Assembly: GCA_958295645.1 (NCBI GenBank)
Contig: OY282361.1
Span: 1,392,501 to 1,456,500, forward strand
Direction: 5' to 3'
Length of the DNA: 64,000 nucleotides
DNA from: Longimicrobiales bacterium
GTDB taxonomy: Bacteria; Gemmatimonadota; Gemmatimonadetes; Longimicrobiales; Gaopeijiaceae
Below the pieces are notes generated by a model, which was not told the origin of the DNA, did no database searches, and saw only the letters and a program-made list of their open reading frames with translations. This document shows positions 36,183-46,258 of the stretch, one piece after another; the stretch's first letter is position 1; every line of letters starts with the position of its first letter. Position numbers and translations under genes: made by a program.

Positions 36183-37337
36183 TCATCGCGTCGGCTCTTG
36201 CAGCCGCGCCAACTCCATGGCGTCTCGGCCGGACGAGGTGGCCGCGGCCCGCTGGAGGATTTGGCGGGCCCGCTTGGGGTCGCCGCTCGCCACCAAGGCT
36301 TCGGCTAAGGCGTTGGCGACGTGGGCAACCGCGACCGCCGGTTCTTGGGCCTTGAAGGTGCGGAACACCTCTTCGGCTCGGGCCATCTCGCCCGCCCTGG
36401 CGTAGGCCCGGATCAACTCGACGGCGAGCACCCCGGACGCTCGGTTGCCGCGCCATGCCGATTCAATGCGGCCAAGCGCATCGTCTTCGTCTCCCAGCGC
36501 ACGCAAGTGGGCCGCGTCTCGCAAGGCCGACAGCACCACGTATTCGGGGTGGGCGGGCAACGTCGCCTGAAAGTAGGTCCGCTCTTCGTCGAACTCGAAC
36601 CGCGGCAACGGCGACCCATTGGCCTCCATGGCCTTGTATATCTTCGCGAGCCCGGACATCCGCATCTCCGCGTGTTTCAGCTCCTTCAGGAATTCCCCAA
36701 TCCGGCGGTTTCGGGTGGGAGTTCCCTTGAATGTGGCCCCGGGCTCAAAGTGCTCTCGCTCGACGCCCTGCACGGGGCCGGGATAGCTGATGATCTCGAC
36801 CCTGTCCGGGAAGACGTACACCTTCGTGGGATCTGGATGCGGCACGTCGTAGCTACGGTGATACAATGCGTTGACCAAAGTCTCTCGAATCGCCTGTACC
36901 GGGTAGTTGACCCACGCCCGAATTTGACTTCGGTGCTCCCTCTTCTGAAGGTGATTCACCGAACGGTTCTCCAGATAGGTCATGCAGCCGCGGTACTGGT
37001 CCAAGAGGCCACCGGCGAAGACCCGCTCCTCCTGCACGTCGCCGGCGCGGTCGGTAGCGAACTGGACTACTTCAATCTTGGCGCCGCGGAACCAAGTCGC
37101 CGGATTCGCCGAAAAGCAAAGGAGCCCAGCGTTGCGAGGCACTTCGTGGTCGTTCACCTTCGCCGTGAGCAGCATATCGCGATAGATGTTCTCAGCTCTG
37201 GGCTCGTCCAGGAGTCCGCTCTTCACGTCGCGAAGGAACTCGCGAACCTGCCCTTCGCGCATGTCCTCGATGCGGGCGCCGACGGCTGGACGGTCGTCCC
37301 ACGTCACGCTGGGCTCAACCGTCTTGCCCAGGCCCAC
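36183..37337 (-). CDS. Schlafen/RecG-like ATP-binding protein lacking the AlbA_2 domain
   Basis: A 384-residue protein matching the middle and C-terminal parts of bacterial Schlafen-AlbA_2 proteins. Features are VPRNAGLLCFSANPATWFRGAKIEVVQF, AIRETLVNALYHRSYDVPHP (the GHKL-like ATP-binding N-box) and RVEIISYPGPVQGVEREHF. A last 130 residues follow with TPR-like helices. The N-terminal AlbA_2 nucleic-acid-binding domain of about 120 residues that normally precedes the WDDRPAVGAR region is missing, and a stop lies two codons before the GTG start, at the end of the HNH gene. The gene is therefore probably 5'-truncated. Such proteins are linked to stress and phage defence; no function is assigned. 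Confidence 0.7.
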   Translation of the reverse strand: MGLGKTVEPSVTWDDRPAVGARIEDMREGQVREFLRDVKSGLLDEPRAENIYRDMLLTAKVNDHEVPRNAGLLCFSANPATWFRGAKIEVVQFATDRAGDVQEERVFAGGLLDQYRGCMTYLENRSVNHLQKREHRSQIRAWVNYPVQAIRETLVNALYHRSYDVPHPDPTKVYVFPDRVEIISYPGPVQGVEREHFEPGATFKGTPTRNRRIGEFLKELKHAEMRMSGLAKIYKAMEANGSPLPRFEFDEERTYFQATLPAHPEYVVLSALRDAAHLRALGDEDDALGRIESAWRGNRASGVLAVELIRAYARAGEMARAEEVFRTFKAQEPAVAVAHVANALAEALVASGDPKRARQILQRAAATSSGRDAMELARLQEPTR

Positions 37338-37340
37338 GAC

Positions 37341-38255
37341 CTACGCCATCTCTTCCAGACGTGGCGGCGTCTGGAACACCCACTTGCGGTGCCAGTCGAC
37401 GAACGAAGCCGACGGAGCCAGCGCTGGAGTCCGCGGCCGACTCACGGGCCTGCCGTGCAGGTCGAGCAGTCTGGCGGTGGCCGGGCTGGAGCCGGCTACC
37501 TTGTCGGAGACGAGGACTCGGTAGCCCGATCGGTCGGGCTGGAGACCGAGCGCACCGCGGTTCAAGGCCCTCTGGTGGAGCAGGCAAGCGGCGAGCGCGT
37601 TCGAAACGTCATTGGGGCCGCCGTGGGAGGACCACTTGAGGCGGACGGCGTCCAATCCAAGGGCGCGGTCGCCAAGGTGGGCGTCGAAATCGCAGATGGA
37701 GCACCGCCGGCCGTACTCGTCCAGGACGTGCGTGCGGAAAGCCGCACTTTCGGGTTGCTCTGGGTACCGCTGGGTCACGCTCCAATCCCAGCGGAGTCCG
37801 GCCGCCGCCCGAAGGCCGTCGTGGTGCGAAGGCGGAAAATGCCGCGCAAGCAGTTGCTCGGCCGCCGTCACAACCAAGCTCGGGTTGGCGGCGAGCAGTT
37901 GATGGACCTCCCTCGGGAATCCGCCAACTACGTCCCGCTCCCGAAGTTGCTTGACGTGAAGATTCCCGCTGGACGTGGTCGCCAGCAACCCGTCCCCCGG
38001 AATCTCCCAGAGCCCGTCGTTCCGGAGTCTTCCGAACGGGTAGACCGGATGCCTCGCGTCCCTCGGCGGCCCGAACTTGACCAACAGACGGCGCAATTCC
38101 GGCTCGATGCTCGAGAACGCTACGAGCCGCCTCCGCCCCTGCACGACCCGGCCGAGCGCCAACAAGAGCAGAAGCGGCTTGTGAGGCGCGCGCTGGCCCT
38201 TCCATGCCCCAGTCCTGACCCGGGCCAAGCGGTGGAGGAACTCGGCTCCCGTCAT
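37341..38255 (-). CDS. Sulfur-recognising (SBD) HNH endonuclease with degenerate active site
   Basis: A 304-residue protein with the architecture of ScoMcrA/SprMcrA-type enzymes that cut phosphorothioate-modified DNA. Residues 1-140 form the sulfur-binding domain (RAPHKPLLLLLALGRVVQGR, FGPPRDARHPVYPFGRLRND). Residues 172-245 form the HNH domain. The zinc Cys pair Cys185/Cys188 and Asn219 are present. The catalytic His of the GLEAAHI motif is Arg205 here (LDAVRLKW), and the LHHKLFDRGAF motif reads LHQRALNRGAL, with Gln228 for the second His. Cleavage is therefore unlikely; it may still bind modified DNA. No phosphorothioation (dnd/ssp) genes are in view. Start at 38255 has a poor Shine-Dalgarno and is tentative. 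Confidence 0.75.
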   Translation of the reverse strand: MTGAEFLHRLARVRTGAWKGQRAPHKPLLLLLALGRVVQGRRRLVAFSSIEPELRRLLVKFGPPRDARHPVYPFGRLRNDGLWEIPGDGLLATTSSGNLHVKQLRERDVVGGFPREVHQLLAANPSLVVTAAEQLLARHFPPSHHDGLRAAAGLRWDWSVTQRYPEQPESAAFRTHVLDEYGRRCSICDFDAHLGDRALGLDAVRLKWSSHGGPNDVSNALAACLLHQRALNRGALGLQPDRSGYRVLVSDKVAGSSPATARLLDLHGRPVSRPRTPALAPSASFVDWHRKWVFQTPPRLEEMA

Positions 38256-38437: not shown

Positions 38438-39364
38438 GTGACTCAAATCAAGCGCCTGCACATCAAGGGCTTTCGGTCGTTGGCGGATGTCGAAATCACC
38501 GACATGCCGCGCACCGCCGTCATGATCGGTCCCAACGGGTCCGGGAAGTCGAACGTCATTGACTTCTTTGTCATGGTCCATCGGATGCTCAAATCTGGCA
38601 AGTTGAACGACTTCGTGCGGCGAAACGGCGGCGCAAGCGATCAGTTGTTTGGTGGAAGCAACACGACGCGGCACATGGAAGCCCACATCGTCATCGGAGC
38701 CGGCAAGGGGACCGCAGAGTACGCATTCAAACTCGCATGCGGTCATCCAGATCGCTTCGTCTTCGTCGATGAGAGGTACCGGTCCGCTCCCGATGGCTCA
38801 GCCGGGGAGCTGAGCTGGGAACACCTGGGCAGCGGACACGGCGAGGCGAAGATTCGCGAGGCTTGTGCTGAAGAACAAGCAGCGCAACTCGGCGTGAGTC
38901 GCCAGGCAGCAAGAACCGTTTCCGACCTGCTTCGCAATATGGCTGCATATCAGTTTCACGACACATTCTTTGATTCCTGGTTCATGAAGACTTGCGACAC
39001 GACCGACGATGCTCAATTGGGCAGTCATGGAGGCAACTTGGCCGCCGTCTTGCACAAGTTGGAACACGACGATCCAGATCGCTATGGCGCCATTTGCGAG
39101 CACATCAAGCGGATTCTGCCGATATTCGATGGCTTCGCCCTTGAAGAACGCCATGGGACAATCGCGCTTCAATGGAGACACGCTCAAGGCGGTCAGATCG
39201 TCGGAGCCCACCTAACGTCAGGCGGCTCGCTATTGTTCGTTCTCGACTTGAGACAAGGCAAGACGGAGATAACGAGGCACCAGCGGGCCGATTACGAACA
39301 TTGGCTGACCGAGTACTCGCTCGGACAGCTATGGCAAAAGAACTTGCTCGGAGGTCGCCCGTAA
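38438..39364 (+). CDS. SMC-like (AAA_21) ATPase with internal deletion of Walker B and H-loop
   Basis: A 308-residue protein of the predicted-ATPase family COG4637. Walker A is GPNGSGKS at residues 31-38, and family blocks FIDFF-like (NVIDFFVMVHRML) and MAAYQFHDT follow. The C-terminal WLTEYSLGQLWQKNLLGGRP is the standard family ending. Between GAHLTSGGSLLF and VLDLRQGKTE, near residue 267, the roughly 65-70 residues that carry Walker B (DEPELGLHP-type) and the TTHSP-like switch are missing. The reading frame stays open. ATP hydrolysis should be lost, so this is probably a decayed gene. The GTG at 38438 has no clear ribosome-binding site. It ends 4 bases before the convergent DUF5916 gene. 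Confidence 0.65.
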   Translation: MTQIKRLHIKGFRSLADVEITDMPRTAVMIGPNGSGKSNVIDFFVMVHRMLKSGKLNDFVRRNGGASDQLFGGSNTTRHMEAHIVIGAGKGTAEYAFKLACGHPDRFVFVDERYRSAPDGSAGELSWEHLGSGHGEAKIREACAEEQAAQLGVSRQAARTVSDLLRNMAAYQFHDTFFDSWFMKTCDTTDDAQLGSHGGNLAAVLHKLEHDDPDRYGAICEHIKRILPIFDGFALEERHGTIALQWRHAQGGQIVGAHLTSGGSLLFVLDLRQGKTEITRHQRADYEHWLTEYSLGQLWQKNLLGGRP

Positions 39365-43619: not shown

Positions 43620-44831
43620 ATGACGAGCCGGCAGTCGGCGCTGGCGGCGGGCGCATCGATCCTCCTGGCCGGTTGCGGCGATTCCGCGAACTCGGCGGCC
43701 TCCGGCGGTGTGGTGGCAACGACCGTGGACACCGTGGGCTCGTGGGTGCGGGTCGTGAACTCCGGCGCCGCGCCGGAGTGGGAGTTGGCCCTGGTGGCGA
43801 CCATCGGTCCGGGGCCCCCGCTGGGCGAGGCGACGCCGGGAGACTTCGGTGAAGCCGTGAGCGTGGCCTTGAGCCCCGGCGAGGACGCCGTGTACGTCGC
43901 CGACCGGCAGAACTGCGAAGTAAGGGTCTTCGGACTGGACGGCGCTCACCTGCGCACGTTCGGACGATGCGGGGAGGGGCCGGGCGAGTTCTCGCGATTC
44001 TTCTACTCGATTGCGTGGACCGGCGACAAGTTGCTGGCCTTCGACTTCGGCGGGGGCCGGATCGGCGAGTTCACGTCCCAAGGGGAGTGGCTCGGGCAGC
44101 GGAGGACGCTGGGCGTAGGCTTCGGGGCGACGTACTTCGCGCTGTACCCGGTCGGCGACGGAGTGGTTTACGCCCGTTCCCTCGCAGGCGACCAGTACGC
44201 GATCACGTACGTGGGCCAGGACGCCGCCGGCGAGACCTCCGACACCGTGGCGCCGCTTCCGCCGCCGGAGGACGCGGGCTGGTGGCTGACATGCGTGCTG
44301 CAGAGCGGATCCGCCACCGTGATCAACAGCTTCGACAACATCTATGCGCCGCACCTTCTCCAGCACCCGGGGCCTGGGGGCACGCTCTATTCGGCCATGT
44401 CGGACGAGTACCGCATCGCCGTCACCCGAGGAGGCGACACGTTGCGGGTGATCGAGCGCGAGTTGGCGCCCGAGCCCGTGGCCGACGAGGAGTGGGACGC
44501 CCTGTCCCAGGAGTTCGAGGCGCTGATGGACGAGATGCCCGGCGCGTCCTGCGAGCCCCGCGCACGTCCGAGGAGACCGGCCCAGAAGCCCTTCATGAAA
44601 GGCATCTTCTTCGACGCGACGGGACGCCTGTGGGTCGAAGTGGTGCGGACGGACGGCAACCGCTGGGAGCTGTTCGACGCGGAAGGCAGGTTGCTGGCCC
44701 AAATGCCCGTGGGCCCACGCAAGGAGGGCGCGCTGCCTGCGCTCGGAGCCCGTCACGCCGCCACCATCCGCCAGGACAGCCTGGACTTGGACCACGTGGA
44801 CATCTGGCGAATCGAGGCGCCGGGACGGTAG
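43620..44831 (+). CDS. Six-bladed beta-propeller lipoprotein, tandem copy 1
   Basis: A 403-residue protein with signal MTSRQSALAAGASILLAGC; the LAGC lipobox predicts lipid anchoring at Cys19. Blades include VALSPGEDAVYVADRQNCEV and IAWTGDKLLAFDFGGGRIGE, with the loop GRCGEGPGEFS typical of bacterial 6-bladed propellers. Ligand unknown. It is the first of two tandem paralogues. A 210-base stretch (43785-43994) differs from copy 2 by only three bases, and the last 239 bases are also nearly identical, while the middle is divergent. A 10-codon frame starting within the M20 stop lies in the 25-base gap; its role, if any, is unclear. Confidence 0.75.
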   Translation: MTSRQSALAAGASILLAGCGDSANSAASGGVVATTVDTVGSWVRVVNSGAAPEWELALVATIGPGPPLGEATPGDFGEAVSVALSPGEDAVYVADRQNCEVRVFGLDGAHLRTFGRCGEGPGEFSRFFYSIAWTGDKLLAFDFGGGRIGEFTSQGEWLGQRRTLGVGFGATYFALYPVGDGVVYARSLAGDQYAITYVGQDAAGETSDTVAPLPPPEDAGWWLTCVLQSGSATVINSFDNIYAPHLLQHPGPGGTLYSAMSDEYRIAVTRGGDTLRVIERELAPEPVADEEWDALSQEFEALMDEMPGASCEPRARPRRPAQKPFMKGIFFDATGRLWVEVVRTDGNRWELFDAEGRLLAQMPVGPRKEGALPALGARHAATIRQDSLDLDHVDIWRIEAPGR

Positions 44832-44878
44832 GTTGGCGGCAGGCGGATCCGCGAGAGCCCACGAGAGGAGCACGAACA

Positions 44879-46129
44879 GTGAGAAGCACGACGACACTAG
44901 CCGCCCGCCTAGTCTTGGCGGCCGGGGCGGCCTCCCTGGCGGCCGGCTGCGGCGACGTACGCACTTCGGGAGACTCCCCAGGCGGCAGTCCTCTGACGAC
45001 GACCGTGGACACCGTGGGCTCGTGGGTGCGGGTCGCGAGTGCCGGCGACCCGCCCGAATGGAACTTGGCCCTGGTGGCGTCCATCGGTCCGGGGCCCCCG
45101 CTAGGCGAGGCGACGCCGGGAGACTTCGGCGAAGCCGTGAGCGTGGCCTTGAGCCCCGGCGAGGACGCCGTGTACGTCGCCGACCGGCAGAACTGCGAAG
45201 TAAGGGTCTTCGGACTGGACGGCGCTCACCTGCGCACGTTCGGACGATGCGGGGAGGGGCCGGGCGAGTTCTCGCCTTTCTTCTATTCCATTGCGTGGGC
45301 TGGCGACAGACTGTTGGCCTTCGACGTTGGCGGAGGCCGCATCGGCGAATTGACGGCCGAAGGCGAATGGGTTGGGCAACGAAGGGTAGTGGGCATAAAG
45401 GGCGGCGGATACTCGTTTGCGCTTTTCCCCGTCGGCAACGGGGAGGTCTACGCCCGTGCGCTCACCGGCGACCGAATCGCCGGAGGAAGGTTCGGCGGAA
45501 GACGGCTGAGCGATGCGTATATGGGCCACAACGCCACCGGCGAGACTGCCGACACCGTGGCGCCGCTTCCGCCGCCGGAGCGCGTGGGCGGCTCGATGTT
45601 CTGCGAATGGGGCGAAGGGTTCGTCAACCTCTTCACCAACCCCTTTGCGCCGGGATCCGTTCAGCATCCGGGCCCCGGCGGCACTCTCTACTCCGCCGTT
45701 TCCGACGAATACCGCATCGCCGTGACTCGAGGGGGCGACACGTTGCGGGTGATCGAGCGCACCCTAGCCCCCGAGCCCGTCGCCGACGACGAGTGGGACG
45801 CCCTTGCGCAACAGTTCGACGCTTGGCTTGAGGAGAAGCCCGGCGCCACCTGCGAGCCCCGTAGGCTGACTAGGCCATCCGCGAAGCCCTTCATGAAAGA
45901 CATCTTCTTCGACGCGACGGGACGCCTGTGGGTCGAAGTGGTGCGGGCGGCCGGCAACCGCTGGGAGCTGTTCGACGCGGAAGGCAGGTTGCTGGCCCAA
46001 ATGCCCACGGGCCCACGCAAGGAGAGCGCGCTGCCTGCGCTCGGAGCCCGGCACGCGGCCACCATCCGCCAGGACAGCCTGGACTTGGACCACGTGGACA
46101 TCTGGCGAATCGAGGCGCCGGGACGGTAG
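44879..46129 (+). CDS. Six-bladed beta-propeller lipoprotein, tandem copy 2
   Basis: A 416-residue paralogue of the preceding gene with lipobox LAAGC. It shares nearly identical blocks (45065-45274 and 45891-46129) with copy 1, but the centre differs, for example YAYM-type replacements and SMFCEWGEGFVNLFTNPFAP. The start is GTG at 44879 with GGAG about 10 bases upstream; the long open frame before it runs through copy 1 in the wrong frame and is not coding. The pattern fits duplication followed by gene conversion at both ends or by selection for a variable central face. The propeller ligand is unknown. It is convergent with the tRNA gene and arginase. Confidence 0.75.
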   Translation: MRSTTTLAARLVLAAGAASLAAGCGDVRTSGDSPGGSPLTTTVDTVGSWVRVASAGDPPEWNLALVASIGPGPPLGEATPGDFGEAVSVALSPGEDAVYVADRQNCEVRVFGLDGAHLRTFGRCGEGPGEFSPFFYSIAWAGDRLLAFDVGGGRIGELTAEGEWVGQRRVVGIKGGGYSFALFPVGNGEVYARALTGDRIAGGRFGGRRLSDAYMGHNATGETADTVAPLPPPERVGGSMFCEWGEGFVNLFTNPFAPGSVQHPGPGGTLYSAVSDEYRIAVTRGGDTLRVIERTLAPEPVADDEWDALAQQFDAWLEEKPGATCEPRRLTRPSAKPFMKDIFFDATGRLWVEVVRAAGNRWELFDAEGRLLAQMPTGPRKESALPALGARHAATIRQDSLDLDHVDIWRIEAPGR

Positions 46130-46174: not shown

Positions 46175-46258
46175 TGCCGGGGGCGGGACTCGAACCCGCA
46201 AGGGATTGCTCCCAGGGGATTTTAAGTCCCCTGTGTTTGCCGATTTCACCACCCCGGC
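46175..46258 (-). tRNA. tRNA-Leu (anticodon UAA)
   Basis: An 84-nt class II tRNA. The acceptor stem is GCCGGGG paired with CCCCGGC, with discriminator A. The anticodon stem GGGGA/TCCCC encloses the loop CTTAAAA, giving anticodon UAA, which reads UUA and UUG. A long variable arm (GGGAGCAATCCC) is typical of Leu, and the T-arm is GCGGG TTCGAGT CCCGC. CCA is not encoded; the bases after the discriminator are TCCC, so CCA must be added after 3' processing. Confidence 0.95.

Follow-up and report, generated by a model that had tools for sequence, protein, structure and literature searches.

Phosphorothioate (PT)-dependent restriction endonucleases such as EcoWI and SprMcrA consist of a sulfur-binding domain (SBD) followed by an HNH domain, and have in common a set of sulfur-pocket residues and the zinc motifs CxxC and CxxH (PMC7470945; PMC7461809, where section 23 names the zinc motifs of SBD-HNH enzymes). 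In ScoMcrA (SBD-SRA-HNH; PDB 5zmm), the sulfur pocket is formed by H116, R117 (or Lys), Y164 and P165, and the substitution A168I lowered binding by 51% (PMC6224610); the H508A variant of this enzyme served as an inactive mutant or control (PMC3009677). For TagI, the first His of the HNH domain is thought to activate water and the second to be a metal ligand, and mutagenesis identified H229, N245 and H254 as essential and D258 as required for activity (PMC6212794). Natural SBD proteins have so far almost all been described as nucleases. Possible inactive relatives were mentioned earlier (PMC3009677; PMC7461809, section 24), and in the literature that we searched, a limited collection, we found no earlier description of a catalytically dead SBD-HNH protein that is maintained.

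The locus described here lies in a 64,000-nt stretch of DNA (the window) from a Longimicrobiales bacterium (contig OY282361.1 of assembly GCA_958295645.1). Its product resembles EcoWI and SprMcrA in domain order, zinc motifs and sulfur-pocket residues, but the general-base His, the metal-binding His and the metal-binding Asp are replaced, and the gene is coupled to a HATPase_c_4/TPR gene. With ScoMcrA it shares the SBD fold, the pocket and HNH positions that can be aligned, but it has no SRA domain. McrA2P of Pseudomonas fluorescens Pf0-1, also of the McrA type, has likewise been proposed to lack activity; it differs from the present protein in being without two residues (GE) of the HNH motif and in having a host that makes PT-DNA (PMC3009677).

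Results

A PT-dependent endonuclease relative with an intact sulfur pocket

The gene occupies positions 37341..38255 of the minus strand, from an ATG at 38255 to a TAG at 37343-37341, and its translation is 304 aa in length. This sequence matched the NCBIfam profile NF045808 ("phosphorothioated DNA-binding restriction endonuclease") with an E value of 5.3e-71 and 239 bits, against a cut-off of 180, and the match extended over positions 5-284 of the 284 in the profile, that is, over the full length of the family. By fold and family, as judged from this match, the protein is a relative of the PT-dependent restriction endonucleases. It has only one match in the host genome.

The SBD corresponds to residues 1-145 (37821..38255, minus strand). 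Residues 1-141 matched, by sequence, the SBDs of both ScoMcrA and SprMcrA (phmmer, 5zmo/7ccd), and the SBD of an AF2 model superposed on 5zmo with a TM score of 0.82 by target length and an rmsd of 2.4 A (Foldseek). The model built from 4 sequences was poor (pLDDT 46); the one built from 13 sequences was good and confident in the SBD but unusable for the HNH domain (pLDDT <50 from residue 194), and we therefore make no structural claim for the dead site. All four pocket residues are intact here and in the orthologue described below: H25-K26 (38178..38183, minus strand) align with ScoMcrA H116/R117, and Y72-P73 (38037..38042, minus strand) with Y164/P165, the residue roles being those given in PMC6224610. 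The SBD is thus kept, as the first-pass annotation had proposed, and the four residues suggest that the protein would bind PT-DNA. The position of ScoMcrA A168 is occupied by Arg76, a residue that many relatives also have there; as A168I weakens binding in ScoMcrA, this speaks to some extent against PT binding by the protein. SprMcrA contacts bases through an HGD motif, of which His102 and Asp104 lie in the major groove (PMC7470945); the residues aligned with it are S96-G97-N98 here vs R96-G97-D98 in the orthologue, and the sequence preferences of the two proteins may differ on this account.

Loss of catalytic residues from a zinc-binding HNH domain

The HNH (beta-beta-alpha-Me) domain, residues 176-304 (37344..37730, minus strand), was recognized by a profile match to the HNH domain of TagI (PDB 6ghs), with which it has the zinc site and the beta-beta-alpha-Me core in common, and by PADLOC HNH models. 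The zinc ligands are all present: C185 and C188 in the CxxC motif (37692..37703, minus strand), which is kept in all sequences, and C224 and H227 in the CxxH motif (37575..37586, minus strand). The first-pass annotation had noted the zinc Cys, and had also read the HNH His as Arg205 and the second His as Gln228; profile alignments with ScoMcrA and TagI bear out both readings. The spacing of R205, N219 and Q228 fits the motif Hx13Nx8H, and the three residues were placed on ScoMcrA H508/N521/H529 and on TagI H229/N245/H254. Accordingly, Arg205 (37641..37643, minus strand) takes the place of the general-base His and Gln228 (37572..37574, minus strand) that of a metal-binding His, while the structural Asn219 at the middle position is retained. 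Two further losses came to light: Asn232 (37560..37562, minus strand) replaces the metal-binding Asp (TagI D258), and Ala220 replaces a Gly that is invariant in other homologues. R205, Q228 and N232 align with catalytic positions of TagI, the first two also with those of ScoMcrA, so that three groups with a part in catalysis have been replaced by residues that are chemically unsuited to it (His by Arg, His by Gln and Asp by Asn). The enzymes of the family are defined by a catalytic His-Asn-His and a metal Asp; this protein has R205, N219, Q228 and N232, and for this reason we do not class it as a PT-dependent endonuclease. Asn215 (37611..37613, minus strand), at the position of TagI Asp241, was also considered as a catalytic loss, but was given little weight, as this column is variable and has Ser, Cys or Asn in relatives.

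We compared these positions in 39 distinct homologous sequences that cover residues 203-234 at an E value of 1e-10 or better, a count from which eight collected loci repeating the window or its orthologous locus were removed, and in which 11 viral-contig sequences, being close to each other, are non-independent. H205, N219, G220, H228 and D232 were found in 38 of them; the exception, which reads R, N, A, Q and N, is the orthologue. No alternative general base was seen. The only His residues between positions 194 and 266 are H211 and H227, of which the latter is a zinc ligand; the former occurs as well in a number of relatives with a full set of catalytic residues, and is thus not a compensating change. 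The search for another His able to serve as general base, by which the first-pass reading might have been overturned, therefore left that reading standing.

An orthologue in another genus

The orthologue is encoded by CATQHQ010000001.1, from a Longimicrobiales metagenome-assembled genome (G025) of the same family but another genus, and is 84% identical to the protein in the window. The two genomes agree in gene order: the HATPase_c_4/TPR gene, the dead nuclease, a divergent HEC-01A-like ATPase gene and a long, well-conserved minus-strand gene. In a tree of 24 sequences the two proteins share one branch (support 100/100, length 0.7) amid catalytically intact homologues, so that the simplest reading is a loss of catalysis before the two genera separated.

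We looked for further members in 121 genomes of the family, in 154 of the order and, by profile, in 395 of the phylum. Two other phyla contributed 302 genomes, and the search extended to viral contigs, plasmids and phages; these sets overlap, and the G424-phylum scan comprised 5 genomes only. Among the best matches listed, only the G025 orthologue had the same five residues as the window protein. Catalytic residues were read in the loci from the sets other than plasmids and phages, whose matches, 15 and 1 records, were all <60% identical. Among the loci read, a wider dead subfamily was thus not seen: a group sharing R205 and Q228, for which the first-pass annotation had advised a search, does exist, but with two members found, each from a single assembly.

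In other members of the same family we noted 2 open frames with an SBD in a different setting. In one (L007/L038/L086; G011, also G252), the SBD opens a frame of 1011 aa; in the other, a 270-aa frame in G024 (L008/L037/L087), little was matched beyond the SBD. Both are further candidates, by sequence, for SBDs without an HNH nuclease.

Purifying selection on the HNH core

The window and G025 genes align over 304 codons with no indel and no stop, and differ at 134 nucleotides (32 at the first codon position, 22 at the second and 80 at the third) and 48 amino acids. By the NG86 method, dN is 0.089, dS 0.425 and omega 0.21 for the whole gene; by parts, omega is 0.32 for the SBD, which is the less constrained half of the protein, 0.13 for the HNH domain and 0.02 for the HNH core of residues 199-250 (37506..37661, minus strand). 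Codon comparison showed a single amino-acid change between the two genera in the 52 codons of this core, against 10.9 expected, and none of 20000 neutral simulations, in which the same number of substitutions was placed randomly with the observed spectrum, gave one or fewer. For the gene, 48 changes compare with a neutral mean of 87.7, and none of 5000 simulations fell at or below 48. As 481 of these 5000 simulations were also free of stops, the lack of stops is weak evidence by itself, and it is the amino-acid count that decides.

For comparison, dS was measurable in twelve homologue pairs in which the catalytic residues are intact, meaning present in the sequence (a thirteenth pair was saturated); omega in the twelve was 0.14-0.36 for the gene and 0.02-0.25 for the core. 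Constraint on the dead core is therefore as tight as that on the cores of intact relatives, and this is our main evidence against decay. In addition, there are no indels in the 915 bp of the gene vs six in the ~150 bp upstream. Neither the neutral substitution pattern nor the frame damage of a pseudogene was found, and the gene has been maintained by selection after catalytic loss.

Neighboring genes and host context

Downstream, the HATPase_c_4/TPR gene (36183..37337, minus strand; Pfam PF13749, TPR_19) starts with a GTG 3 nt past the nuclease TAG and in the same frame. This junction, including the TAG, is conserved in both genomes, although a shared frame would occur by chance one time in three. 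We noted also that the HATPase_c_4/TPR frame runs on after the TAG in both genomes (37329-37343), such that amber read-through would fuse the 2 proteins. The downstream genes of the two genomes differ by indels of 15 bp and 360 bp, lengths divisible by three, the copy in the window being the one shorter by 360 bp, and omega between them is 0.24-0.30. Relatives from other genomes that align from the first residues of the HATPase_c_4/TPR protein do so starting at their own residues 147-206, so that the protein lacks an N-terminal domain of about 150-200 aa, which may be AlbA_2. A HATPase_c_4/TPR gene was found beside the nuclease gene in none of 22 other contexts (L002, L003, L070-L089), several of which end at contig ends. 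Separately, there are nine matches to this type of gene in the host genome, an expanded set of paralogues.

On the other side, the divergent gene (38438..39364, plus strand) encodes a short HEC-01A-like AAA ATPase (PADLOC HEC-01A, 1.4e-68, profile positions 4-257 of 363). It is frameshifted in G025 by an 85-bp deletion, and omega is 0.32-0.36 over its first 183 codons; an eroding defense gene thus adjoins the preserved SBD-HNH gene. Farther along, at 43620-46129 (plus strand), lie two similar genes in tandem, followed by a tRNA-Leu gene (46175-46258), and each of the two matches a counterpart pair in G025.

The search for PT-modification genes covered the Dnd type, as distinct from the Ssp type: DndC was detected in none of 18 genomes, both hosts included, and DndD in neither of the 2 hosts.

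Discussion

We consider it probable that the protein is a catalytically dead, selectively maintained relative of the SBD-HNH endonucleases, acting on incoming DNA as a reader of PT modification or as a roadblock. The SBD would grip an Rp-phosphorothioate, and the zinc-stabilized HNH domain would retain its fold along with the surface for DNA or dimer contact, adding grip or dimerization; with its general base and its two metal ligands gone, however, hydrolysis would not follow. The bound protein could then block replication or expression of the modified DNA or, as an alternative outcome, recruit the downstream HATPase_c_4/TPR protein. Restriction by tight binding of PT-DNA alone has been suggested in general terms (PMC7461809, section 26). 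The ligand would be foreign DNA if the hosts make no PT-DNA of their own, as the lack of detectable DndC and DndD in both suggests. The first-pass annotation had supposed that the protein probably binds but cannot cut PT-DNA, and that it was either decaying or repurposed. Binding without cutting fits a pocket that is retained and a catalytic site short of three residues that are essential in TagI; decay does not agree with a dN/dS of ~0.2 for the gene and ~0.02 for its dead core, and repurposing is favored because the substitution pattern rejects decay.

A more elaborate proposal, which we think conceivable though doubtful, is a two-part sensor in which the disarmed SBD-HNH protein reads PT on invading DNA and signals to a HATPase_c_4/TPR protein that has no N-terminal domain of its own, the two perhaps being fused at times by read-through. 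The former nuclease would then be the DNA-reading module of a defense or silencing system that does not cut. It is unlikely, in our estimation, that the protein has given up PT-DNA binding and now serves the HATPase_c_4/TPR protein as a scaffold or regulator: the weaker constraint on the SBD than on the HNH domain and a same-frame coupling found only in the dead pair could be read in this way, but both orthologues retain the four sulfur-pocket residues, and the SBD model superposes on 5zmo.

That the protein is still a nuclease or nickase, by way of a rearranged active site or residues supplied by a partner, seems to us quite improbable. The HNH core is as conserved as in intact relatives, and the third position of HNH enzymes can vary, as in SprMcrA, which cuts weakly with H-N-R (PMC7461809, which cites Yu et al. 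2018 for this enzyme); by analogy, weak residual nicking may occur here. Yet SprMcrA retains the first His (PMC7461809), whereas here the general base has become Arg and the two metal ligands Gln and Asn, neither H211 nor H227 is a likely substitute, and loss of the corresponding His inactivates ScoMcrA (PMC3009677).

Ordinary decay of a PT-dependent endonuclease gene is very improbable. Three conserved catalytic residues are gone and the surrounding island is eroding, as seen from the HEC-01A-like gene, short here and frameshifted in G025, and from the 360 bp by which the downstream gene is the shorter; but amino-acid changes are far fewer than neutral, conservation is strongest exactly in the dead core, and the indels found upstream stop short of the gene. 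Scarcely credible, too, is a role as a dominant-negative decoy holding an active paralogue in check: inactive partners in defense loci would be a general precedent for it, but the protein has just one match in the genome.

If the reading that we prefer is correct, the protein would be a ready-made candidate reagent for the capture of PT-DNA, and would offer a test of whether tight binding by itself suffices to restrict such DNA, as has been suggested. A natural SBD-HNH protein that is dead but selected would, moreover, show that recognizing sulfur in DNA can be of use even when no cut follows.
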